In this document: piece after piece, positions 32,453-49,832 of the stretch
How positions within the stretch are numbered: position 1 is the first letter of the stretch
Layout: each line of letters opens with the position of its first letter
Source: an uncultured Clostridia bacterium
GTDB taxonomy: Bacteria; Bacillota; Clostridia; UBA1212; UBA1255
Direction: 5' to 3'
DNA: 64,000 nucleotides
Assembly (NCBI GenBank): GCA_904420095.1
Contig: CAJFUB010000039.1
Location: 62,001-126,000 of the forward strand
The notes under the pieces: generated by a model
The model's input: the letters and a program-made list of their open reading frames with translations, nothing else
Told to the model about the DNA's origin: nothing
Database searches by the model: none
Program-made: the position numbers and the translations under genes

Positions 32453-32528
32453 TGGTGATCTATCGGAGGCTCGAACTCCGGACACCCTGATTAAAAGCCA
32501 GGTGCTCTACCAACTGAGCTAATAGATC
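32453..32528 (-). tRNA. tRNA-Lys (anticodon TTT)
   Basis: 76-base cloverleaf on the minus strand. Acceptor GATCTAT pairs with ATAGATC; D arm GCTC/GAGC with loop AGTTGGTA; anticodon stem CCTGG/TCAGG around loop CTTTTAA, anticodon TTT; T arm CGGAG/CTCCG with TTCGAGC. Discriminator A and an encoded CCA end the gene. Its own promoter and terminator flank it. Confidence 0.96.
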
Positions 32529-32618: not shown

Positions 32619-33623
32619 CTACTCTGCGGAGACTTCTACTCTCTGGAGCAGCGAGGTCGGAACGCGAAGCACTGGCCGTATGCCCTCAGTCGTATCATGT
32701 ACGGAATAACCGCCCTCCGTTACAGTACCCGCGCGATTGACGCCAAGCATATACGTCTTCGCACCCGGGTCTCTCAGCCACCAGTTCGCCTCAGAATCCT
32801 CGCCCACGGAAACGCCGCGTGCTACGGCATAATCCGTGGCATACGCCATTGCATTGATTTCACTGTCTTCCGCTTTAAAATATTCTTCAAACTCAGCCGC
32901 GGAGAGAAGATATATTTTATCGGTGGTGCTTGCTCCCCCGTCCGTACCGTATGTTTCGTTGTCCGCCGCGGTAAGACTGACCGTCTGAATGCGGCTGATT
33001 TCGTCGCTTGTAAACGCTCTGTTGATAAAGTTCAATTGCGTATTATATGCCGAACCCGTTCTCGCATCATAATCTCCCGTTCCGTTAAGCCAGTCGCGTA
33101 TGGATGATGTTTCCCATGTGCATTCACCGTAAAGATCGCTGTATTTTCTGCCGCCGTCTATCACTTTATTGGAAATAATAATACTGTCGGATCCAACCGT
33201 CTCCAGAACGATCCATTGAAGAGGCTCCACCAAGAACAGGTCTTCCCCGCATTGCATATAGTATTGTTCTTCCTGCCTGACACCGTCAACTTTTGCCGCG
33301 TATATGAAGTATCCCGTCTCAAGATCATATCTCGCATACATGGTTTCGTCATCGCATTCGTTCCATAATCCCGTTTCCTCGTCGATCGTAACCTTGCTCT
33401 TGATATCACTTTGAATCTTACTGTCCGCTTTCGACTGAGGATATACGCCGAACTGCATCAGCTTGTCCGCGGAAACCTCTTCCTGTTTTTCAAAAGACGG
33501 ATCGCCGCCATTTGCCGACCAAGTCGATACACCTTTCTCCGTACTTTTACAGCCCGCAAGCAATAAAACCGAAGCAAGAATCCCCGCTAATAATATTGCA
33601 GGCAATAGCCTTCTGCGTGTCAT
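32619..33623 (-). CDS. DUF6273-type lipoprotein
   Basis: 334 residues. Lipoprotein signal with lipobox LLAGC (Cys25), a short Ser/Gly-rich linker, then a domain with the DUF6273 pattern: WIVLETVGSDSIIISNKVID, WETSSIRDWLN, ISRIQTVSLT, WWLRDPG and GIRPVLRV. It sits on the outer face of the membrane; the domain is common in surface and secreted proteins of gut Clostridia and has no known activity. Start at ATG 33623 is set by AGGAGG. It has a strong own promoter. Confidence 0.85.
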   Translation of the reverse strand: MTRRRLLPAILLAGILASVLLLAGCKSTEKGVSTWSANGGDPSFEKQEEVSADKLMQFGVYPQSKADSKIQSDIKSKVTIDEETGLWNECDDETMYARYDLETGYFIYAAKVDGVRQEEQYYMQCGEDLFLVEPLQWIVLETVGSDSIIISNKVIDGGRKYSDLYGECTWETSSIRDWLNGTGDYDARTGSAYNTQLNFINRAFTSDEISRIQTVSLTAADNETYGTDGGASTTDKIYLLSAAEFEEYFKAEDSEINAMAYATDYAVARGVSVGEDSEANWWLRDPGAKTYMLGVNRAGTVTEGGYSVHDTTEGIRPVLRVPTSLLQRVEVSAE

Positions 33624-33697: not shown

Positions 33698-33748
33698 TAA
33701 ATAAATATTGTATTTTCGATTAAAAGTAGCGTCTCGGGCCGCCGCTCG

Positions 33749-33783
33749 TTTTTTCCCTGACAGACTTCTTTTTAGGGAAAAAA
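33749..33783. repeat. Dispersed inverted repeat, copy A (upstream of spoIVA)
   Basis: Arms TTTTTTCCCT (33749-33758) and AGGGAAAAAA (33774-33783), perfect 10 bp, spacer 15. On the plus strand TTTTTAAGT follows directly. It lies 90 bases ahead of spoIVA. Two further copies of TTTTTCCCT...AGGGAAAAA lie at 36593-36625 and 49800-49832. Confidence 0.65.
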
Positions 33784-35433: not shown

Positions 35434-36471
35434 CTATTCCGTCCGTTTTCTGATTTTTTTTGCCTTTTGTATATTTTCCACGCCGTATATAACGCCCTGC
35501 GGCAGCTTTCCCGCCGCCAAACCGCAAAATACTGTTTTGATCCAGCCGACATCCAAGTAATCCCGCTCCGTAAGATCCAGCACAATAAGATTTTTGCCCA
35601 ATTCGATGCCGATTTCTCGATAAGCCGTCAGTTTTTCCTCCCATCGTTCCCGGTAGTCTTTTCGATCCATCATTCCCAATATTTCCATATAATATTTTCT
35701 TCCGCCCACTTGCAGCAGAAAATCGCAGTTTAAAGCTGCCTCTGGCATATAATACTCATAAATATACGGAATTTCCAAAGTATTTAGGATTTCTGCCACC
35801 AGCAGCTCGGCACGTGAGCGTACCGAATCGCCCCGCGTCGTCTGTATGATTTTTCCAGATCGCAGGTAAAACAGTCTCTGCGCATCGCTTTCAAACGCTG
35901 TATTGATCTGTTTTTTTGTGCCGTATCTTGCAATCATTGTTTTCTCTATCGAATTTTCTCGGCACGATTCCATGCTTCTGCGTCCTATTTCATATTTGAA
36001 TCCAAGATTTCTGGCGATTTCCTTGGTAATTTCCCTTTCGCGCCTTCGTTTTCCAAAATTTAAGCGTTCTCTCGTTTCTTTTGCCAATTTCTCCAGTTCT
36101 CGTACAGAATCCTCTATATATTTTTTATAACGCAGCTTGTCTCGAATTCCTGGCAAATTTTCCGGAATTCGATAATCGTTAGGATCATAGGTTCCGTATT
36201 TCTTCCGAAGCTCTTCCTGGCTGTGCGGCTTCACACGCTTACTCACATGGAACTGTTTTCCGTCCACATCAATATTATCATAAAAATTTGCATACTTTCG
36301 CAAGCCTTTCGTTTTGCTTTTGTATACCCGGCGAGTTACCTTTGTCACTACGCTCCCTCTTGGATAATTTGCAAAATTCCTCATTTCCTCGCGCAAAAAG
36401 ATAAGCTGTCCTTCATATTTCTCTAAAAGCAGCAAATTTCTTCCACGGTCCGACTCATGATAACGCAGCAA
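35434..36471 (-). CDS. Orphan protein with PD-(D/E)XK-like nuclease domain
   Basis: 345 residues, visibly more AT-rich than its neighbours. N-terminal two thirds: charged, with a basic helical stretch (about 112-165, many Arg/Lys) suited to nucleic acid contact. The C-terminal part (about 218-300) has the layout of a restriction-endonuclease-like core: Glu222 in a helix (RSRAELLVAEIL), Asp250 (NCDFLL), Glu263 (YYMEILGMMD), then Lys280 and Tyr284 in RERWEEKLTAYREIG. The spacing and the 'ExLGM' form are those of the small REase-like domains attached to helicases or standing alone. Start TTG 36471 is chosen because AGAGGA precedes it by five bases; a plausible TTGAAG/TAAACT promoter lies upstream. 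No methylase or helicase partner is near. Confidence 0.72.
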   Translation of the reverse strand: MLRYHESDRGRNLLLLEKYEGQLIFLREEMRNFANYPRGSVVTKVTRRVYKSKTKGLRKYANFYDNIDVDGKQFHVSKRVKPHSQEELRKKYGTYDPNDYRIPENLPGIRDKLRYKKYIEDSVRELEKLAKETRERLNFGKRRREREITKEIARNLGFKYEIGRRSMESCRENSIEKTMIARYGTKKQINTAFESDAQRLFYLRSGKIIQTTRGDSVRSRAELLVAEILNTLEIPYIYEYYMPEAALNCDFLLQVGGRKYYMEILGMMDRKDYRERWEEKLTAYREIGIELGKNLIVLDLTERDYLDVGWIKTVFCGLAAGKLPQGVIYGVENIQKAKKIRKRTE

Positions 36472-36592
36472 TGCAATCCTCTCCCCTCAGAGAAAAAAGT
36501 GCTTATAGTTTATCATGCTCTCGTCTGAACTTCAACAAGTTTCTTTTTCCTGATTCTCCAGTTTTTGCCTTTTTCAGCTCTTCAAAAATTGC

Positions 36593-36625
36593 TTTTTCCC
36601 TAAGGTCCCGACTTTTAGGGAAAAA
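36593..36625. repeat. Dispersed inverted repeat, copy B (upstream of the nuclease-like gene)
   Basis: Arms TTTTTCCCTAA (36593-36603) and TTAGGGAAAAA (36615-36625), perfect 11 bp, loop 11. On the minus strand it is followed by GCAATTTTTG. It lies 40 bases after the trkA stop and about 120 bases ahead of the nuclease-like gene, so it could serve either. Confidence 0.65.
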
Positions 36626-36665
36626 CCTACCGACCTGCTCCGGGCCGGGCGGGCGCCAAGGACCG

Positions 36666-37352
36666 TCAGGCTTTCTCTGCCCACGCCGACAGACGGTTCA
36701 AGCCGGCTTTGCTGCCGGATATAAACAGAATATCTCCTTTCTTGAACACATAATCCGGATGAATGGTTTCGATTAAGGTGCCGCTGTTTTCTATCGCAAT
36801 GATATTAATGCCAAATTCTTTTCGAAGATTGACCGATAGAACGGTTTTTCCAATAATTCTATCCGGAATCATCAGCTTTGAAATATTGAGCTGCTCGCTG
36901 AGCTGAATGAAATCCAGCATTCTGGAGGTTTCCAGTCGGTGCGCAAGACGGATCGCCATGTCACGTTCCGGATATACAACCTCGGCGCCGAGCTTTTCAA
37001 GTATTTCACCGTGCTCAAGACTCGTCGCCTTTGCGATTACTGCAGGTACTCCCAGACTGACCAGATTCAGCGTGGTCAGAATGGATGTGTCCATCTGCTC
37101 CCCAATGCAGACCACCGCGACATCACAGTTCTGTATCCCCGTTTCGGAAAGTGACTTTTTATCGAGACTTTTTACCACATAGGCGTTTTCGGTATAATCC
37201 CGCAGTTCGCGCACTTTTTCCTCGTCTCTGTCTAAAGCGACCAGGTCGGCGCCGGAGGTAGCGAGCTCCATTGCAAGCGCATAGCCAAATCGTCCCAGAC
37301 CGACGATCCCATAAGTGTCTTTTTCTTTCTTTGCTTTGTTAAACATTTTCAT
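36666..37352 (-). CDS. trkA: TrkA/KtrA-type potassium uptake regulatory subunit
   Basis: 228 residues, single-unit TrkA as in KtrA/KtrC. RCK_N with nucleotide motif GLGRFG (18-23) and the acidic end of strand two in VALDRDEEK; RCK_C from about 145 (SKLMIPDRIIGKTVLSVNLR...VFKKGDILFISG). It gates the TrkH channel in response to nucleotides, from the cytoplasmic face. It lies seven bases after trkH, the last gene of the five-gene K+-related unit. Confidence 0.95.
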   Translation of the reverse strand: MKMFNKAKKEKDTYGIVGLGRFGYALAMELATSGADLVALDRDEEKVRELRDYTENAYVVKSLDKKSLSETGIQNCDVAVVCIGEQMDTSILTTLNLVSLGVPAVIAKATSLEHGEILEKLGAEVVYPERDMAIRLAHRLETSRMLDFIQLSEQLNISKLMIPDRIIGKTVLSVNLRKEFGINIIAIENSGTLIETIHPDYVFKKGDILFISGSKAGLNRLSAWAEKA

Positions 37353-37359
37353 CCTCCTG

Positions 37360-38661
37360 TTATCCTATTGCAATATTTCCTTCCGGATAGCTGGTACGGT
37401 CGCCTTTTGTGAAATACCACAGAGACGCGATCGTCAGCGGGCCGAGTCTGCCGATGTACATGATCAGGATCGACAGCAGCTTGCTGCCATCACACAGTCC
37501 AGTTGTAATACCGGTAGAAAGGCCGACCGTTCCGAATGCGCTTGTGACCTCAAACAGCGCATCCATCAGCGAAATTTCCGGTTCCATAGCAACCATCAAA
37601 TAAGTGCCGGTTACTACAACGCCCAGCGCAATCAGAGTAATCACCGCAGCTTTCCGGAACGCATCGGACGGAACGGCATACCGGAAGCCCTTTTCCGATT
37701 TATTGGTTGCCGCGGATTTAATCCCTTGCAGCAGCACAAAAAACGTACTGGTCTTGATACCGCCGCCGGTAGATCCGGGAGACGCGCCGATAAACATCAG
37801 CACCGTCAGAACAAGCAGACCGGCATTTGAAAATGTGCCGAGCGGATACGTGGAAAATCCTGCGGTTCTTGCCGAAACGCTGTGAAAAAAGGCTCCGAGC
37901 CAAGTAACATGCTCTGTCAGCTTAATGAGAATCGTCCCCGCGACGATCAGAACCGCGCTGACAGAAAGCACCACCTTTGTATGCATCGAAAATTTCTTCC
38001 AGCGAAACCGTTTGCTTATGATCTCGCGGATCACCAGAAACCCGATGCCGCCGAAGAAAATCAAACCGCATGTCACGAGGTTCAGCAGCACATTGTCCTG
38101 ATACGGAATCAGATTCTGAAAATTTCCCAAAATATCAAAGCCCGAGTTATTAAATGCCGCAACCGAATGGAACAGACTGATCCCGGCAGCACGCAGCGGC
38201 GGATAATCCTGTACGAAAACCAAAAAGCTCAGGACGGCTCCGCTGAGCTCAAACGCCAGCGTTGTCAGAAACACGCTTTTGATAAAACGAACTGTGCCCT
38301 TTCCGGAGTCCAGGTTCATCGCTTCCCGTATAATGTTCCGGCCTTTTAGGTTTATCTTCTTCCCCATCGCCAGAATCACTCCTACGCCTACCGCCGTCAC
38401 TCCCAGGCCGCCGATCTGTATCAAAGCGCCCAGGAAGAACTGTCCCAGCGGTGTGAAGGTATCCCCCGCGTCAATAGCGATCAGTCCAGTAACGCAGACG
38501 GCGCTGGTGGAAGTATACAGAGCGTCGATATATCGCACTGTTACCCCATCCTGTATGCTGCACGGCAGGCTCAGCAGCACAGAACCCAGCAGAATGACAA
38601 GAGCAAAGCCCAGCGCAATAATTCGGCCGGGAGACTGCCTTTTCAGCAATTGAAGCATCAT
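37360..38661 (-). CDS. trkH: TrkH/KtrB-type potassium channel subunit
   Basis: 433 residues from ATG 38661, two bases beyond the stop of the permease gene, with GGGGGG upstream; a longer frame to 38703 would overlap that gene deeply. Polytopic membrane protein with the four-repeat selectivity-filter pattern (TSAVCVTGL, NNSGFD, ARTAGFST and TVGLSTG). It imports K+, with Na+ or H+ coupling depending on type. Directly followed by trkA, its gating subunit. Confidence 0.95.
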   Translation of the reverse strand: MMLQLLKRQSPGRIIALGFALVILLGSVLLSLPCSIQDGVTVRYIDALYTSTSAVCVTGLIAIDAGDTFTPLGQFFLGALIQIGGLGVTAVGVGVILAMGKKINLKGRNIIREAMNLDSGKGTVRFIKSVFLTTLAFELSGAVLSFLVFVQDYPPLRAAGISLFHSVAAFNNSGFDILGNFQNLIPYQDNVLLNLVTCGLIFFGGIGFLVIREIISKRFRWKKFSMHTKVVLSVSAVLIVAGTILIKLTEHVTWLGAFFHSVSARTAGFSTYPLGTFSNAGLLVLTVLMFIGASPGSTGGGIKTSTFFVLLQGIKSAATNKSEKGFRYAVPSDAFRKAAVITLIALGVVVTGTYLMVAMEPEISLMDALFEVTSAFGTVGLSTGITTGLCDGSKLLSILIMYIGRLGPLTIASLWYFTKGDRTSYPEGNIAIG

Positions 38662-38662
38662 T

Positions 38663-39982
38663 TTATACCCCCCATACAAACCATATGTAAAGATATCCAA
38701 CAAAAACCGCCGACAAAGTGAATGGTACGCCGATTCGTAAAAAATCCCGCAATTTTACGGTTTCTCCGTTTTTACGCAGAATCCCGATAGCAGCAATATT
38801 TGCGGAAGCCCCAATAGGAGTAAGATTTCCTCCGAGCGTTGCGCCGATCAGCAGCCCGAAATAAAACACATACGGTTCCATTCCTGCTCCTCCGTTCATA
38901 AGTGCGGCGATGCCCTGCACAACCGGCAGCATCGTCGCCACATACGGAATATTGTCGATAAACGCAGACAGCAAAACCGATACGAAAACGATCAGGGTAT
39001 ATAAAAGGAACGGGTTATCACCGGATACCCTGTGGAACAAATCCGCCGCCGCATCAATGACACCGGCCGCTTTGACTCCCTCGATTACAATAAATAATCC
39101 GAAAAGCAGCAGCAGAGTATCGCGATCCAGTCCCTTCCATACGCGCCGGAACGGATCGCCGGATTTCTTTTTGATGCACTCCCGGACAATACCGATCAAG
39201 CACAAAGCGGTGCAGATCAGCCCGCTGCGCAATCCATAGAGAACCTGAAGAGCCGCATTTTCCGGCTCCGGCAGAAAAGATGCTGCAATTAGCAGGACGA
39301 CCGTGCCGATCATTAAAAAGGACGGGAAGAGGTCCTTTACCTTTGTTTCCGCAGCGGCCGAAACCGGCTGCCGATTCTTTCGGAACAAAAACAGCAGCGC
39401 GCCGACAGACGCAAGCGCCCCAAGCTCCACGCCCCAGAAAATACCGGGCTTTCCGTTCATCCAGAAAAAATCAAGAAAGCTCATTCCGGCAAAGCCGCCC
39501 AGCAGCATGCTGGTGGTATCCCCCACCATCGTCGCCGCCCCCTGAAGATTGGACGAAACGGCAATGGCAATCAGCACAGGGACCGGAGATATTTTCAGCG
39601 CCTTTGAAATCGCCAGACCGACGGGCGCTACCATCAGGACCGTCGCAACATTATCCACAAACGCGCTGATAATTCCGGCGAACAAGGCCAGCACCGTAAC
39701 CGCCCATTTAACATTTGGAACACGCGTGATCAAAAGCTCCGCCAGACGCGCCGGCATCCCGCTTTCAATAAACAGGAGGACGATTCCCATCGTTCCGGCA
39801 ATCATAAGAAGCACATTGTAATCCACTGCCATCAGCGCCGCAGCCGGCGTAAGCTCATAGATGCCGCACAGGCCAAGAATCAGAAACACCGCCGCGCTGC
39901 AAAGCGCAATCCAAGGACGGTATTTTTGCAAAGAAAGCATCAGCGCATAGGTTATCAAAAAAATTGCCAGGGCCAAAATCAT
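38663..39982 (-). CDS. SLC13/ArsB-NhaD-type permease
   Basis: 439 residues, about 11-12 membrane helices. Two inverted halves carry the helix-hairpin signatures of the ion transporter superfamily: SAFVDNVATVLMVAPVGLAI in the first half and SAFIDNIPYVATMLPVV in the second, plus GATLGGNLTPIGASANIAA. Members export arsenite, exchange Na+/H+ or import dicarboxylates. Specificity is not set by sequence alone. Translationally coupled: its ATG overlaps the response regulator stop (ATGA), and trkH starts two bases after its stop. Context suggests an ion homeostasis role. Confidence 0.88.
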   Translation of the reverse strand: MILALAIFLITYALMLSLQKYRPWIALCSAAVFLILGLCGIYELTPAAALMAVDYNVLLMIAGTMGIVLLFIESGMPARLAELLITRVPNVKWAVTVLALFAGIISAFVDNVATVLMVAPVGLAISKALKISPVPVLIAIAVSSNLQGAATMVGDTTSMLLGGFAGMSFLDFFWMNGKPGIFWGVELGALASVGALLFLFRKNRQPVSAAAETKVKDLFPSFLMIGTVVLLIAASFLPEPENAALQVLYGLRSGLICTALCLIGIVRECIKKKSGDPFRRVWKGLDRDTLLLLFGLFIVIEGVKAAGVIDAAADLFHRVSGDNPFLLYTLIVFVSVLLSAFIDNIPYVATMLPVVQGIAALMNGGAGMEPYVFYFGLLIGATLGGNLTPIGASANIAAIGILRKNGETVKLRDFLRIGVPFTLSAVFVGYLYIWFVWGV

Positions 39983-40725
39983 GACGGTTCCTCCCTCGCC
40001 GGAGAAGCTTTTTTATCCGTATCTTCCTCAATCATGCGGTATCCGACGCCAAGCTCGTTCAAAATATACGGATTATCTCCCGGTCTGCTGCCAAATTTCT
40101 TGCGGATATTCGCCATGTTTACCTGAAGTCGTTTCGTGCTGCCAAGATCCGTTCCGCCCCAGATTGCGCGGACGATAGACGCGTACGTCATGACTCTCCC
40201 GGAGGATTCAGAAAGCAGCGCGACAATATTATATTCCGTCTGCGTCAGCTTTACCTCCTGGCCGTCTACAAAAACCTGCCTGCGGTCATAATCGATGACC
40301 AATCCGCCGGCAGTGAATCTTCCGCCGGGCAGGGCTCCCGCCGCTGCCGCGTGACGGTTGCTCCGCAGAGCGGCACGAATGCGCGCAATCAGCTCTGCCG
40401 TCCCGAACGGCTTTGTAATATAGTCGTTCGCACCGAGATCCAGGGCAGTAACCTTATCCTGCTCCGTCGTTCTGGCAGACAGAACGAGGATCGGCGTGGC
40501 AAAATTTACCCGTACCGTCTTAATAAATTCAAGTCCGTCTTTGTCCGGAAGGCCTAGATCCAATATGACAAGATCCGGGTTATGCGATAGAAAAAGCGAA
40601 GTCCCCATGGTGCAGGTGCTCGCCGTCAGAACCTGGTAACCGTTTGTGTTCAGCAGCGTCTCCACGAAGCTGCTGATATTTGCCTCGTCCTCGATGACCA
40701 GAATTTTAAATTTATTGTTGCTCAT
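39979..40725 (-). CDS. KdpE-like response regulator
   Basis: 248 residues from ATG 40725; a longer frame to 40974 exists but would run inside the kinase gene in another frame and is a shadow. Receiver domain with EDE acidic pair, phospho-acceptor Asp in VILDLGLPDKDG, SAR and the KPF lysine; OmpR/PhoB winged helix with QTEYNIVALLSESSGRVMTY and STKRLQVNMANIRKKFG. Closest in pattern to KdpE. It overlaps the kinase stop by 14 bases and the permease start by four. Confidence 0.92.
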   Translation of the reverse strand: MSNNKFKILVIEDEANISSFVETLLNTNGYQVLTASTCTMGTSLFLSHNPDLVILDLGLPDKDGLEFIKTVRVNFATPILVLSARTTEQDKVTALDLGANDYITKPFGTAELIARIRAALRSNRHAAAAGALPGGRFTAGGLVIDYDRRQVFVDGQEVKLTQTEYNIVALLSESSGRVMTYASIVRAIWGGTDLGSTKRLQVNMANIRKKFGSRPGDNPYILNELGVGYRMIEEDTDKKASPAREEPS

Positions 40726-41776
40726 GCTCGGAATCCTCCATTTCCAGCGAAAAACGGAATGTCGTGCCGCGGTTCGGTTTGCTCTCCACGCAGAGTTCCC
40801 CGCCGTGCGCTTTGATAATCGTGGCGCATACCGACAATCCGATTCCCATGCTGTGCTTGCTGCGGTCCACCGCAGGCGCATCTTTTTCCATGCTGCCAGA
40901 GAAAAGCGTATCCAGCTTTTCCTGCGGAATGCCGCAGCCATCGTCAATGACTTCAAATACCACGCGATTGCCAAGCGTAAACACCCGCAGGATAAGCTTT
41001 GTCATACCAAAAGCGTGATTCACCGCATTTTCCAGCAGGTTAATAAGAACCTGCTCGATCAGGATCGAATCCATAGGAATAATAATAAACGATTCCGGAA
41101 TATCCGCCGTAACGCTCCATTCTGGATAATGCTTTCTGAATTTTACAAGGACAGCGTCAATGAGTTCTTCCAGAACGGTAGGCACCTTTTTCACAGAAAC
41201 CGTTCCGCTGTTGATCCGCGTAACGGACAGAAGGTTTTCTACCATCCGATTCAGCCATTCCGCGTCTTCGCACACCTCGCTGAGAAGCTTCAGCTGCTGC
41301 TCTTTATCCAAAGAGTCATAATTTTCCATTATTGTAGAACAGGATCCATAGATCGATGTCAGTGGCGTCCGCAGATCATGGGAAACCGCTCTGAGCAAAT
41401 TTGCCCGCATCTTTTCCTTTTCGTTTTCAGCGCGCATGCGCTCCTGATTTTTTACGTTGGTTGTGAGCGCGCTGGTCATAACGGCGACAAACAGCATTAC
41501 AATCCCCGAGAACATATTTTCCGGCAGAGAAAAATTAAATTCAAAATACGGAAAAGTAAAGGCAAAATTAACGGCAAGCACACTGACCAGAGAGGCCGTA
41601 ATGCCCCAAAGATATCCGTGCGTCACGAGCGAGACAAGAAATACCGCCATGACAAAAATCATCGGCGCCATTGCTTCTGTATCAAATGCTTTCTGTATCA
41701 GAACAACGGCTGCAAAGGATACCGTCAGAATCAGCAGCGTTAGTAACAGATCCTTTATGCAGCTTCGGAATTTCAT
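40712..41776 (-). CDS. KdpD-like histidine kinase lacking the N-terminal KdpD/Usp domains
   Basis: 354 residues from ATG 41776, with GGAGG eight bases upstream. Four membrane helices of DUF4118 type (about 5-100, including MIFVMAVFLVSLVTHGYLWG), a short coiled linker, H box AVSHDLRTPLTSIYG, N box NLLENAVNHA, and G boxes DDGCGIP and GIGLSVC. Full KdpD proteins are near 900 residues with a large cytosolic sensory part in front; that part is absent here. It would sense K+ or turgor through its membrane part. First gene of the kinase-regulator-permease-TrkH-TrkA unit. Confidence 0.92.
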   Translation of the reverse strand: MKFRSCIKDLLLTLLILTVSFAAVVLIQKAFDTEAMAPMIFVMAVFLVSLVTHGYLWGITASLVSVLAVNFAFTFPYFEFNFSLPENMFSGIVMLFVAVMTSALTTNVKNQERMRAENEKEKMRANLLRAVSHDLRTPLTSIYGSCSTIMENYDSLDKEQQLKLLSEVCEDAEWLNRMVENLLSVTRINSGTVSVKKVPTVLEELIDAVLVKFRKHYPEWSVTADIPESFIIIPMDSILIEQVLINLLENAVNHAFGMTKLILRVFTLGNRVVFEVIDDGCGIPQEKLDTLFSGSMEKDAPAVDRSKHSMGIGLSVCATIIKAHGGELCVESKPNRGTTFRFSLEMEDSEHEQQ

Positions 41777-41857
41777 CCTTTCCCCTCCCATATGAGTACC
41801 GTGCCATTATACCGCGGCTGCGCTTAAGATACGGCAAAGGTTATGCGCGCCGCATTC

Positions 41858-41885
41858 TAAAAAAACGCCCCGCATAGCTGCGGGG
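41858..41885 (-). terminator. Rho-independent terminator after the sugar isomerase gene
   Basis: Minus strand: stem CCCCGCA/TGCGGGG (41885-41879 with 41874-41868), 4-base loop, then CGTTTTTTT. It lies 14 bases after the stop of the isomerase-like gene and ends the long ybaB-to-isomerase unit. Confidence 0.92.
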
Positions 41886-41898
41886 CCGCTTCTCGTTT

Positions 41899-43251
41899 TC
41901 AATCTTCGGTCACAAGGCCGATCCCGAGAATTTTACAAAGCTGCGCCATCGGCTCCGTAATATCCCCGTATGCGATGATATAATGCTGGCAGGCTACCCG
42001 CTGGGCGAACCGTTCCACATTCGGAAGCAAAATTTTCAGGCCGGGAAGCTGCGGCGCCGGCTGCGTCCAGCCTGCCTCCTCCCACTTTGCCGGCGTTTCT
42101 CCTCTGCCGCGGCACAGGTGCATATAATACCGGCCGCCCTCCGTCACAAGACGGCACATCGTCAGCTCGCCCGTTTTTACTTTTGAAACGTTCAGGATTC
42201 CTTCCGACAATTCGCCGAAGGCCGCGGGGATGACTGTAATTTCCCCCTCTGTCGCACCCTGTGGAATATAATCGGGAACGCCTGCAAGCACGCCGTCTTC
42301 AAAAAACTCATAAAATTCAAGATACGGCGCGCATTGCCCCGTCAGGGCCTTTACCATCAGCTGCGTCACGTTGCCGAGGCAATCGTTTTCCGGGATCGTG
42401 CAAAGATCGTCGCAATTTGCCAGCAGCATGAATACCGGCGCCGGAGGAAACCCAAGCAGCTTTTTCATTCCATCTACATCTTTCAGGGAAACTGCAGCGT
42501 AGCCCCGCTCTTTTGCAAGCGCGCTTACGGCCAGATAATAGCCGGCAGCCTGTTCCAGGCTTTCCTGCTTGGCGGGCTTCAGGAATTTCCAGCCGGACAT
42601 CTGTTTTTCGATGATTTCAGCCTTTTCGCCAGGCGTTATCCGCTGATAGCGCTGTACGATTTCCAGAAGCTCGAACGTCTCGATCTCCGCTCCTATAACG
42701 CGTTTCAGAGAAACTCCGTCGCACAGCGTACCGTATAAGTTCATGTCCCGGTAACCGGCCATGCCGACACGCGCCGTGCGCAGCCAGGCGGCCGCGGCGG
42801 CGGCTCTTCCGAACGCTGCGACTGCTTTGGAACGCGTCGGCAGCCCCACGATGTCATAAACGTACCGGAATGTGTAGCCAAGCTCCTCCATCGTCTTCCG
42901 AAGCGCGGACGTTCCCGCCTGATCGGCCGTCGTCACCAGTCTGCCGTCCTCCATCCAGCCGCAAAGGCCCCATAATACCATAGGCTTGTGGCGGAATCGC
43001 TCTGCAATCTTTATCACGGCATGCGTCGGAATCCAGCCGGCGATGCAAAGCACCAGGAAATCAAACGTCTCGGTCTGAAGAACGGAAAGCGCGTTACCAA
43101 TATCCTTTTCCGCATAATCGTCCGTCACGGGGTACACGGATACGAGGGAGACGCCCTCCTGCTTAAGCGCCTCCTCGGCCGCGGCACATTTTCTGACAAT
43201 AATTTCTGTCGGCGTATTTACTTCGCCGAAGCCAACAAAACCAGCCTTCAT
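41899..43251 (-). CDS. L-fucose/L-arabinose isomerase family protein
   Basis: 450 residues. N-terminal Rossmann-like half (MKAGFVGFGEVNTPTEI, FDFLVLCIAGWIPTHAVIKI, PMVLWGLCGW) and a C-terminal half matching the fucose/arabinose isomerase fold (LANCDDLCTIPENDCLGNVT with metal-binding acidic residues, and PLPGLKI-type end). Isomerases of this family interconvert aldoses and ketoses in the cytoplasm. Divergent from true FucI or AraA, so the sugar is unknown. It overlaps the FGGY kinase stop (TAATG) and is followed by a terminator. With the kinase and a TIM-like isomerase upstream it forms a sugar catabolic module. Confidence 0.82.
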   Translation of the reverse strand: MKAGFVGFGEVNTPTEIIVRKCAAAEEALKQEGVSLVSVYPVTDDYAEKDIGNALSVLQTETFDFLVLCIAGWIPTHAVIKIAERFRHKPMVLWGLCGWMEDGRLVTTADQAGTSALRKTMEELGYTFRYVYDIVGLPTRSKAVAAFGRAAAAAAWLRTARVGMAGYRDMNLYGTLCDGVSLKRVIGAEIETFELLEIVQRYQRITPGEKAEIIEKQMSGWKFLKPAKQESLEQAAGYYLAVSALAKERGYAAVSLKDVDGMKKLLGFPPAPVFMLLANCDDLCTIPENDCLGNVTQLMVKALTGQCAPYLEFYEFFEDGVLAGVPDYIPQGATEGEITVIPAAFGELSEGILNVSKVKTGELTMCRLVTEGGRYYMHLCRGRGETPAKWEEAGWTQPAPQLPGLKILLPNVERFAQRVACQHYIIAYGDITEPMAQLCKILGIGLVTED

Positions 43252-44660
43252 TATTTAAGTCCTCCTTGCATCAATCGATCCGCAGTGCGGAAATTGTTAT
43301 AAACGTCAGACTGATCCGCACCGGATGGGTGAAACACCCGGTCCGGAACGGCGAAACGCCGGCTTGCCTCTTCAATGGAGGGAAACAAGCCGATCCCGTG
43401 TCCCGCCAGAATCGCGCTCCCTAAACAAGCCGTTTCTTTATTTTTCAGCGTTTTCAAGTCTGTACCCGTAATATCCGCTTTGATCCGGCACCAAAGCGGA
43501 CTTTCGGCGCCGCCGCCTGTCACACGGATTTCCTCCGGCGAAATGCCGAGATATTCGAGATTTTCCCGCAGCATGCACGCGACGGACTCCAGAATGCTTC
43601 TGACAAAGTGGCCGCGCGTATGCTCCAGCGTCAGGCCGGCAAAACAGCCCCTGGCATCCGGATTATATTTCGGCATGGTAGAGCCGCACAAATAAGGCAG
43701 AAAAACGAGGCCTCCACTGCCCGGAGGCACTTTTTCAGCCAAAGCGTCAAGATCACGGAAACTGAAATTCTCACACAAGTTGTTTTTAAACCATTTCAGC
43801 GCCATCCCCGCCGTCGGCGTCCAAAGGAGAAGACAATATTTTCCGTTAAAATTATAATGGCACGGAATGATGCTGTCTGCGCGGAACGGCGGGATTTCCT
43901 TTGCGTTTGCAAAGATAGCCATCGTCGTTCCCGTCATCTCGCTGATCACGGTTTCCGACACGATTCCCGCTCCAATGGCGCCGGCAACCTGGTCCATCGC
44001 CCCCGTAACGACACGGCAGGACCCGTAGGTGCCGAGAAGCACGCCGCTGTCCTCGATTCGAGGCAGATACTCCTCCGGAATTCCGATAAAATCAAGCATT
44101 TCCGGCCACCAATCGCCCGTATTGATATCAAAATACAGACTCGAAGACTGCAGCGTTTTTTCCGTCGCAAATTCCCCGGTCAGTCTGTAAAGAAGATAAT
44201 CCTCCAGCAAAAAAATTTTCCTTGTGTTGCTCCAGATTTCCGGCAGATGCTTCTTTATCCATAAAATTTTACACGCGGGCCATGTGGCGGTAACTTCCGG
44301 CTGTCCGGTTTTCTCATAAATTTCTTTCCGGCCAAATTGCGCCTCGATCTCCTGCGCTTCCCGCTTGGCGCGGTTGTCAAGCCAAACAATGGCGTTCATC
44401 AGCGGATTCCCGTTTTCATCCGCAAGAATCAGCGTTTCGCATTGCGTGTCGATTGCGATCGCGTCCGGAAGCCGATCCGGACATACCTGATCCAGTGCCT
44501 GCCGGAAAATCCGCCAATATGTTTCCGCCTCCAGTTCTACGAGCTCTCCGGAAGCAAGCAGGGTATAATCAACACTGGCGGAGGACAGGGGCTTTCCGTT
44601 TTCGTCAAACAGCACCGCTTTTAATGAAGTTGTGCCGACGTCGACTCCCAGTAATCTCAT
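43251..44660 (-). CDS. FGGY family carbohydrate kinase (xylulokinase-like)
   Basis: 469 residues. N-terminal GVDVGTTSLKAVLFDENG phosphate motif, AIDTQCETLILAD, TGAMDQVAGAIGAG in the substrate region, and the C-terminal VTGGGAESPLWCRIKADITG with GSAILAGHGIG. It phosphorylates a ketose or polyol with ATP. Closest in layout to xylulokinases, exact substrate not predictable. It lies 11 bases after the TIM-like gene and overlaps the isomerase gene start. Confidence 0.88.
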   Translation of the reverse strand: MRLLGVDVGTTSLKAVLFDENGKPLSSASVDYTLLASGELVELEAETYWRIFRQALDQVCPDRLPDAIAIDTQCETLILADENGNPLMNAIVWLDNRAKREAQEIEAQFGRKEIYEKTGQPEVTATWPACKILWIKKHLPEIWSNTRKIFLLEDYLLYRLTGEFATEKTLQSSSLYFDINTGDWWPEMLDFIGIPEEYLPRIEDSGVLLGTYGSCRVVTGAMDQVAGAIGAGIVSETVISEMTGTTMAIFANAKEIPPFRADSIIPCHYNFNGKYCLLLWTPTAGMALKWFKNNLCENFSFRDLDALAEKVPPGSGGLVFLPYLCGSTMPKYNPDARGCFAGLTLEHTRGHFVRSILESVACMLRENLEYLGISPEEIRVTGGGAESPLWCRIKADITGTDLKTLKNKETACLGSAILAGHGIGLFPSIEEASRRFAVPDRVFHPSGADQSDVYNNFRTADRLMQGGLK

Positions 44661-44671
44661 GATACGCTCCT

Positions 44672-45373
44672 TTAAGAATGCAGCTCATCCCATGCGCGGC
44701 GAAGCGCGGAAATCATTTCCTCCGTCATCGCGGCAGGATCAGCCGCTTTAATAATTCCGCTCGTGCTTCCCGTGGCAAGCGCTCCTGCATGAATGACGTT
44801 ATAAACGTCCTGTCCGTTAGAAATTCCCGCGCCCTGCAGAACCATGATCTCCGGATTAATTTCCCGAACGATCCGTATTGTATCCCGGACATAGCTCAAA
44901 TCGCTTGCCTGCCCTGTCCCGATCAGCGCGGTAGGCTCCGCTACGATGAGATTCGGGGACATTTTCGCAACGGCCGCGATCTCTTCAAGCGTATCGGCGC
45001 AGACGATCGTCCCGAGTCCGACCTCGTCCGCGCGGGCGATTGTTTTTACAAGCGTCTCACGGTCCAGCGGTTTTTCCGCATGGTTCAGCATGACACCCTT
45101 CGCGCCGGCCGCTTTGACCGCCTCCGGCAGAACGGAGCCCAGGCCGCGTCCGATCGGCAGACAATCCATATGCTGCGCAAATACAAGGATTCGTTCGGTG
45201 TTCTCCGCAAGCAGCCGGATATCCGTATACTGCGGCGTCACGATGATATCCACATCATATTTGACCGCGATTCTATCAATTTCCTTCGCAAGCCGAAGCA
45301 TTTCGTCTCCGTACAGGTATGCTTTCGGTCCGATTTCAAAAAACGGCGGTTTAATTTTTAAATCCCGATACAT
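44672..45373 (-). CDS. Triose-phosphate isomerase family protein (archaeal-type form)
   Basis: 233 residues, shorter than the 250-residue bacterial TpiA. Catalytic His98 (LNHAEKPL) and Glu146 (VAEPTALIGTG), a candidate substrate Lys17 (GPKAYLYG), and the phosphate loops QGAGISNGQDV and ALATGSTSGIIKA. The pattern is of archaeal-type TIM and of TIM paralogues acting on tetrulose phosphates in polyol catabolism (erythritol/threitol type). Its place before an FGGY kinase and a sugar isomerase suggests such a catabolic role rather than glycolysis. A true glycolytic tpiA is expected elsewhere. Confidence 0.85.
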   Translation of the reverse strand: MYRDLKIKPPFFEIGPKAYLYGDEMLRLAKEIDRIAVKYDVDIIVTPQYTDIRLLAENTERILVFAQHMDCLPIGRGLGSVLPEAVKAAGAKGVMLNHAEKPLDRETLVKTIARADEVGLGTIVCADTLEEIAAVAKMSPNLIVAEPTALIGTGQASDLSYVRDTIRIVREINPEIMVLQGAGISNGQDVYNVIHAGALATGSTSGIIKAADPAAMTEEMISALRRAWDELHS

Positions 45374-45388
45374 ATTTCTGGTTCCTCT

Positions 45389-46018
45389 TTATTTCGTGCC
45401 GAACAGCCGGTCGCCCGCGTCGCCCAAGCCCGGAACGATATACGCATGAGCATTTAACCCCTGATCGATCGCCGCGCAGTAAATATCCACGTCCGGATGA
45501 TCGCGAAGGATTTTCTCCACGCCTTCCGGAGCCGCAATCAGATTCATCAGCTTAATGGCTTTCGCGCCTCTCTGTTTGATGAAAGAAATCGCCGCAGACG
45601 CCGAGCCGCCCGTGGCAAGCATGGGATCGAGCACAACGACCTCACGCTGCGCTACGTCAAACGGAAGCTTGCAATAATATTCAACCGGCTGCAGCGTGTC
45701 GGGATCCCGATACAGGCCGATATGTCCTACCTTTGCCATCGGGATCAGGCTGAGCACCCCGTCTACCATACCAAGGCCGGCGCGAAGGACAGGCACAAAG
45801 CACAGATTCTTTCCCGCCAGCATTTTCGCATGGGCGATTCCGACGGGCGTTTCCACATCCACATCCTCCAGCTCCAAATTTCTGGTTACTTCATAACACA
45901 TCAGCATCGCTATTTCGGATACCAGTTCTCTGAAATCCTTGGTATTTGTGTTTTTGTCGCGAAGCATTGCGATCTTATGCTGTATCAGCGGATGGTCGAA
46001 TGCATGTACTTGTCCCAT
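45389..46018 (-). CDS. upp: Uracil phosphoribosyltransferase
   Basis: 209 residues, typical. PRPP loop [28 protein letters not shown], and the C-terminal uracil-binding [16 protein letters not shown]. Salvages uracil to UMP in the cytoplasm. RBS GGAAGGAAG precedes ATG 46018. It lies 48 bases after ywlE and 15 before the TIM-like gene, linking the housekeeping and the sugar parts of the unit. Confidence 0.97.
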
Positions 46019-49799: not shown

Positions 49800-49832
49800 T
49801 TTTTCCCTTACGCCCCAGGGCTCAGGGAAAAA
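49800..49832. repeat. Dispersed inverted repeat, copy C (between ybaB and the DUF4091 gene)
   Basis: Arms TTTTTCCCT (49800-49808) and AGGGAAAAA (49824-49832), perfect 9 bp, spacer 15. On the plus strand CTTTTGAGT follows, like the TTTTTAAGT after copy A. It ends 14 bases upstream of the -35 box of the DUF4091 promoter. Confidence 0.65.

Follow-up and report, generated by a model that had tools for sequence, protein, structure and literature searches.

The window, that is, the whole 64,000-base stretch of DNA that was analysed, contains three copies of a gapped palindrome with exact shared 9-base arms, TTTTTCCCT-N15-AGGGAAAAA, at the positions where the preliminary description had placed three inverted repeats. 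The sites and the features discussed with them are the following.

33750..33782, no strand: site 1, TTTTTCCCT-N15-AGGGAAAAA, between the divergent gene at 32619-33623 (minus strand) and spoIVA
36593..36625, no strand: site 2, TTTTTCCCT-N15-AGGGAAAAA, upstream of the nuclease-like gene
49800..49832, no strand: site 3, TTTTTCCCT-N15-AGGGAAAAA, between the divergent genes ybaB and GH123/DUF4091
35434..36471, minus strand: likely cognate gene, 345 aa, with a C-terminal PD-(D/E)XK-type nuclease domain according to homologue comparison, profiles and a model
33707..33780, no strand: net gain of 74 bp that includes most of site 1, relative to the sister genomes G003 and G002
35434..46018, no strand: gene block without a tblastn match in the stretches from G001-G004, containing the nuclease-like gene and site 2

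According to the listed open reading frames, site 1 lies 92 bp before the start of spoIVA (33874), and site 2 lies 122 bp before the start of the nuclease-like gene (36471, minus strand) and also 41 bp beyond the end of trkA (36666). Site 3 has the start of the GH123/DUF4091 gene (49915) 83 bp away on one side and that of ybaB (49705) 95 bp away on the other. The three sites stand singly, with no array in the window, and site 1 has one additional base pair beyond the shared arms (33749/33783). The shared arms are separated by 15 bases at all three sites, rather than by 15, 11 and 15 as first described; the value of 11 for site 2 arose because two further paired bases were counted in.

Dinucleotide shuffles give an expectation of 0 copies, and three copies were reached in 0 of 100 shuffles. 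Scanning the source assembly (2,564,630 bases in 50 contigs, 94.9% complete) yielded exactly three sites with no mismatch, all of them in the window and spanning 16.1 kb. The assembly has no site with one or two mismatches, and its six matches with three mismatches equal the number found with the reversed-pattern control. For three random sites in the assembly length, the simulated probability of a span of at most 16,083 bp is 0.000115. These values indicate that the motif is strict, local and beyond chance. The preliminary description had held that a lack of further copies in the genome would speak against the repeats. Such copies are indeed lacking, yet this does not refute the finding, in view of how the sites cluster, of the comparison with sister species and of the wider family presented below.

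The T run forms the 5' arm and the A run the 3' arm, which was rightly judged wrong for an ordinary terminator. An intrinsic terminator (a GC stem followed by a 3' T run) is rejected on this ground, and two of the three sites lie between divergent genes. It is also true that the T-side comes first on both strands, but this adds no evidence, since any inverted repeat of a TTTTTCCCT-type sequence shows the same. At the Rfam gathering score, the sole match in the window is a tRNA at 32456-32528, and the palindromes have no match. The TGTTNCACGTGAAACA-type parS is a different sequence, and a GTTTCACGTGAAAC site sits on another contig, C48. The three hairpins fold better than shuffles, as any palindrome would, and inner loop pairs are visible in them by eye.

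No Pfam family is found for the 345-residue protein at E <= 0.01. Among 28 members of its family, S219, E222, E239, D250, E263, G266 and Y273 are invariant and R218 is nearly so. At E <= 0.1, all 28 members match the C-terminal end of PADLOC PDC-S68, 25 of 28 match PDC-S69, and 19 of 28 match HEAT_CxxC_PD-DEXK; a PHROG of Holliday-junction resolvases is matched by 12 of the 28 members, and the NCBIfam Bax1 model by two of the 28. The AlphaFold model, with a pLDDT of about 75-88 over most of residues 211-300 and of 58 overall, is usable for the C-terminal domain alone, its N-terminal half being unreliable. The modelled core comprises H220-231, E236-242, E247-255, E258-265, H271-286 and E295-299; it is an alpha-beta core with the conserved residues E222, D250 and E263, in agreement with a PD-(D/E)XK nuclease. 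With the first-ranked structure and several others being helical proteins aligned to the unreliable N-terminal half, and with two mitoribosome chains scoring like Bax1 on the nuclease part, the structural neighbours of the C-terminal domain include I-Bth0305I (Z of 9.4, 95 aligned of 97), Bax1 (8.7), Vsr (8.6), TnsA (7.2) and Hjc (7.2). Foldseek against the PDB gave no match at E <= 0.001, the best being Bax1 at 0.03. The C-terminal domain is predicted to be a Vsr/I-Bth0305I/Bax1-like nuclease of the PD-(D/E)XK superfamily, and the N-terminal half is a putative DNA-binding part that would give specificity. Although the predicted fold is like that of I-Bth0305I (an EDxHD, Vsr-like homing endonuclease), Bax1, Vsr and TnsA, a fold shows no function. 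Homing enzymes are not known to carry palindrome families.

The nuclease domain is also like that of the PADLOC phage-defence candidates PDC-S68 and PDC-S69. The PDC-S68 profiles, however, exceed 1200 positions and family members match only their end. Seven viral relatives (IMG/VR, L290-L296) are such long proteins, helicase-like by our reading and ending in the same nuclease-type domain, and differ in having no palindrome family. Viral scans with two single proteins returned no relative, and the only relatives in the plasmid and phage collections are distant ones of a single member (5 and 2 records, respectively). In Clostridia, the family is present in 22 of 291 sampled genomes at E <= 1e-5, with up to seven matches in one. 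In G003, five fragments truncated by contig ends represent at least three additional, partial copies of such a gene, and a palindrome lies near four of the five, one of the four having been seen by eye.

Comparison with related genomes indicates that the sites are lineage-specific. Ahead of spoIVA, both flanks of the gain at 33707-33780, the exact ends of which are uncertain owing to A/T runs, can be aligned with G003 and G002, and site 1 is absent from these two genomes; conserved anchors that are 83 bases apart in the window are 9 apart in G003. G001 and G004 have different genes at this place. In the gap between ybaB and GH123, the site 3 palindrome is absent from both genomes compared (G003 and G001). 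The gap in G003 contains four palindromes with different arms, TTTTTCGTCC-N16/17-GGACGAAAAA (L095:5268-5519), spaced 72-73 bp apart; the arms are 10 bases long in two of them and 9 in the other two. These arms recur in G003 on contigs C8 and C18. As for the block at 35434-46018, it also holds trkA/trkH, a citrate-transporter-like gene, an OmpR regulator, a KdpD-type kinase, sugar genes and UPRTase.

No TTTTTCCCT-N15-AGGGAAAAA site with at most one mismatch exists in the four other genomes of the genus (G001-G004). In 57 genomes other than that of the window there is no exact match, and one of them, G041, has a single one-mismatch match that looks like chance. When the 18 arm bases were sought in 84,980 genomes, a collection that may omit the window's own or very near genomes, 77 stretches were found. 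By eye, a large group of these belongs to Lachnospiraceae and represents a different repeat with conserved flanks. This repeat (L014, L016, L021, L027, L029 and similar stretches) contains TTTTTCCCT-N15-AGGGAAAAA, is sometimes near contig ends and is MITE-like. Ten of the 77 stretches, with 11 sites, come from Saccharopolyspora sp. NFXS83 and represent a palindromic repeat of one genome; it is long, lies in a GC-rich genome and has a core with the same arms. The remaining stretches are, again by eye, seemingly single matches, some of them coding. Viral contigs contain one match, with unrelated flanks. The nuclease-family profile found no member in any motif-bearing locus, the viral one included (0 of 78 loci). 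On this evidence, none of these loci is known to have the exact motif in common with the window through descent.

What often recurs among the relatives is a palindrome beside the gene. The homologue in G004 is 45% identical to the 345-residue protein, and upstream of it lies TTTTTCGCT-N15-AGCGAAAAA (in a longer form, CGGTTTTTCGCT-N15-AGCGAAAAACCG), which differs from the window arms by one base and has the same N15 gap. In G001 and G003, where the homologues are more distant, two TTTTTACTT palindromes precede the gene in each genome, 246-360 bp from its start, and five of six TTTTTACTT palindromes in G001 lie on the 14.5-kb contig that carries the gene. Families found beside other relatives include TTACCTGCA-N19, GGTATACTA-N20, TTTACCCCA-N21, TACGGATAA-N21, TTCTACTAA-N18 and others; many of their palindromes are right before the start codon, and some are behind the gene or on both sides. 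For the window itself, proximity and one close homologue suggest the pairing of TTTTTCCCT with the 345-residue protein.

The association was evaluated on 55 stretches around family members, with 20 stretches chosen at round coordinates in the same genomes as controls; to count as positive, a locus had to contain one exact arm in at least two non-overlapping palindromes with equal gap (+/-1). The count of positive loci is 19 of 55 with 9-base arms and 27 of 55 with 8-base arms, against none of the 20 control loci and none of 55 Markov sequences at either arm length; loci from related genomes are not fully independent. While 26 of the 55 loci overlap those from which the link was first noticed, 29 had not been looked at earlier, and eight of these previously unseen loci (sorted by hand) score with 9-base arms and 12 with 8-base arms. 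When a criterion of three copies with 7-base arms is added, the total becomes 29 of 55, so that 26 of 55 have no palindrome family by the criteria used. The first comparison had given 12 of 30 loci against one of 64 control segments, the sole positive control segment being the G003 ybaB|GH123 array itself. Eight further fresh loci yielded five positives with 8-base arms, one of which (ACACACAA) is of low complexity, and one of eight with 9-base arms. Given that about half of the loci show nothing, the link between palindrome and gene is strong yet not universal, or older arrays have decayed past detection.

The largest family shows what is kept constant in these elements. Exact TTACCTGCA-N19-TGCAGGTAA palindromes number 53 in G055 and 21 in G206, with none in G246, and the reversed-pattern controls gave 0. 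They form arrays with a 74-75 bp period, dispersed over several contigs; some arrays of G055 and G206 share related loops, and a five-unit array of G055 is missing from the same place in G206. A census of 13 fetched stretches comprised 73 units with at most one arm mismatch. In these 73 units, the arms present 9 mismatches in 1314 arm positions, the gap is 19 in 73 of 73, and 60 distinct loops occur. With genes taken as long open reading frames, the seven dispersed G055 arrays examined lie in tandem gaps (four) or convergent gaps (three), and none is in a divergent gap. It is the arms and the distance between them that are constrained, a pattern that does not look like a transcript or promoter element.

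Spacings between neighbouring palindromes cluster at 51-54, 61-65, 72-75, 83, 93-95, 104 and beyond. Taking one spacing from each of 27 arm families, the Rayleigh length R at 10.5 bp is 0.78, with a phase of -0.16 bp, and when each spacing was randomly shifted, 0 of 20,000 null draws reached the observed R. The best period between 8.5 and 13 bp is 10.5. Five fresh spacings agree with this phasing, 288 of 20,000 null draws being equally good. Spacing by whole turns implies that the copies present a single face of the duplex to the proteins that read them, and that these proteins touch or cooperate. The phasing is a direct sign of multi-protein assembly; it holds statistically across families and for arrays, whereas the window sites are single.

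Judging from the sequences compared, the three sites are probably, on balance, duplex sites of the cognate nuclease-family protein that spread as a local repeat family. The proposed mechanism starts from the finding that Clostridia genes of the nuclease family are often paired with gapped palindromes that have gene-specific arms and, within each family, a constant gap. A dimer of the protein, probably by means of the variable N-terminal part, would bind both half-sites, whose arms are 24 bp apart. Palindromes of an array, placed at whole helical turns according to the statistics across families, would act as duplex sites from one helix face, and dimers on phased sites could line up side by side. 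Units of about 72-75 bp (seven turns) would be copied into new intergenic gaps, locally first. This copying step is suggested by presence and absence, local clustering and multi-copy genes, and the simplest guess for its route is a cut at or near the palindrome, followed by repair from another copy. In the window, one copy lies 1.7 kb to one side of the gene, and the other two lie 0.1 and 13.3 kb to the opposite side. The preliminary description named two possibilities, a common DNA-binding protein and a small family of repeats; it is partly supported, in that both together seem to be true. A duplex-binding protein fits the fixed geometry, the nearly invariant arms, the free loops and the helical phasing in the wider family, while a repeat family fits dispersed copies with presence and absence between species. 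The genes beside the sites had been called unrelated, which overlooked the likely cognate gene (35434-36471) among the three.

Some of this evidence would also be expected if the protein bound as an autorepressor or DNA organiser only, and the sites arose by ordinary duplication and selection with no nuclease-driven mobility. Arrays are often immediately before the gene, they are helically phased, and in two species their arms are conserved and their loops related. However, nuclease residues are conserved family-wide, the presence of units differs between species, G003 has several gene copies, and many arrays are distant from the gene; this alternative is regarded as unlikely.

Quite unlikely, too, is that the sites are operators through which an ordinary transcription factor, distinct from the nuclease, jointly controls spoIVA, the nuclease/trk region and GH123/ybaB. 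Against this, the sites are absent upstream of spoIVA in G003 and G002 and from the ybaB|GH123 gap in G003 and G001, and they are clustered within 16 kb. The palindrome type tracks the nuclease-like gene in other genomes, and the seven G055 arrays examined are tandem or convergent, with none divergent. Although strict palindromes 83-122 bp before gene starts, two of them in divergent gaps, and a genome total of exactly three are what an operator would present, common regulation of the three neighbour genes is not supported, given the sister loci and the orientation of the G055 arrays. In the reading of duplex sites of a spreading repeat family, an influence on spoIVA or GH123, if there is one, is probably a side effect.

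The closest known system is that of REP/BIME elements with TnpA_REP (REPtrons). As outlined in PMC8266576 and PMC3733652, these are likewise short intergenic palindromes, dispersed or in tandem and gene-specific, with a cognate gene beside part of them; how REP elements spread is still open according to PMC8266576. The palindromes described here differ in their fixed arms and gap with free loops, in helical phasing, in local clustering, in a multi-copy gene in G003, and in a linked gene that has, by the model, a restriction-type nuclease domain and not an HUH transposase. Membership in REP/REPIN is rejected because the GTAG foot is inconsistent: it is not found within 10 bases of site 1, site 2 has CTAC on its right side, which reads as a preceding GTAG on the minus strand, and site 3 has CTAC on the left, in the opposite orientation to site 2. 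In addition, Pfam scans found no HUH/Y1 family in the genes flanking the three sites. That the repeats are single-stranded hairpins processed by a TnpA_REP (HUH) enzyme is therefore very improbable, although they are short, dispersed and intergenic and fold better than shuffles, for the wider family is phased by the duplex helix. Our analysis suggests a system that would resemble REP-type repeats in its behaviour, with a Vsr-like nuclease driving or maintaining the family.

TIGR arrays, as described in PMC12045711, resemble this system in tandem units, short conserved repeats with variable parts, a protein gene beside them and stem-loop arrays that include palindromes; they differ in that no alternating dual repeats with 9-nt spacers occur here, that single copies are dispersed and that phasing follows the duplex. 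A guide-RNA array (CRISPR- or TIGR-like) with loops or linkers as spacers, suggested by conserved short repeats, variable insides and a nuclease-like gene alongside, is highly improbable, given that loops are near-copies within some arrays and related between species, that the window sites are single and dispersed, that spacing follows the DNA helix, and that no Nop domain of TIGR-Tas is among the 19 Pfam families listed for the 28 members at E <= 0.1.

The broader claim, for and against which we are evenly divided, is that these elements form an undescribed class: a small protein of a Vsr-like nuclease family whose DNA-binding part diversifies fast, a private palindrome for each, phased nucleoprotein arrays, units of about 72-75 bp that move out from the gene to gaps both close by and far away, and orphans after gene loss, the whole being a duplex-acting analogue of REP/RAYT with a restriction-fold enzyme. 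In the open-access literature, which excludes subscription papers and preprints, no paper was found that ties such palindromes to a nuclease gene. There is thus weak evidence of novelty for a palindrome-nuclease system of a new, seemingly undescribed kind.

If the proposed reading is true, otherwise unnamed small nuclease-like genes in Clostridia carry their own recognition sites alongside, and the specificity of a protein for DNA could become readable from sequence. It would also place a second, unrelated enzyme class among the genes tied to dispersed bacterial palindromes. Arrays such as those of G055 and G206, with a period of 74-75 bp, could be mistaken in annotation for CRISPRs or regulatory operators, and the multi-protein assembly suggested by phasing is testable by ordinary footprinting.

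The source genome holds a second family, TTTTTACT-N16-AGTAAAAA, with 20 sites in ten fetched stretches on contigs C1, C17, C20, C30, C31, C37, C39 and C47 (L165-L172, L174). Its eight spacings are unphased, with a mean cosine of -0.03. No cognate nuclease gene was found for it, the searches having given only one nuclease-family gene in the source genome, and the TTTTTACT-N16 family may be an orphan after gene loss. Several near-identical copies of it lie close to contig ends.
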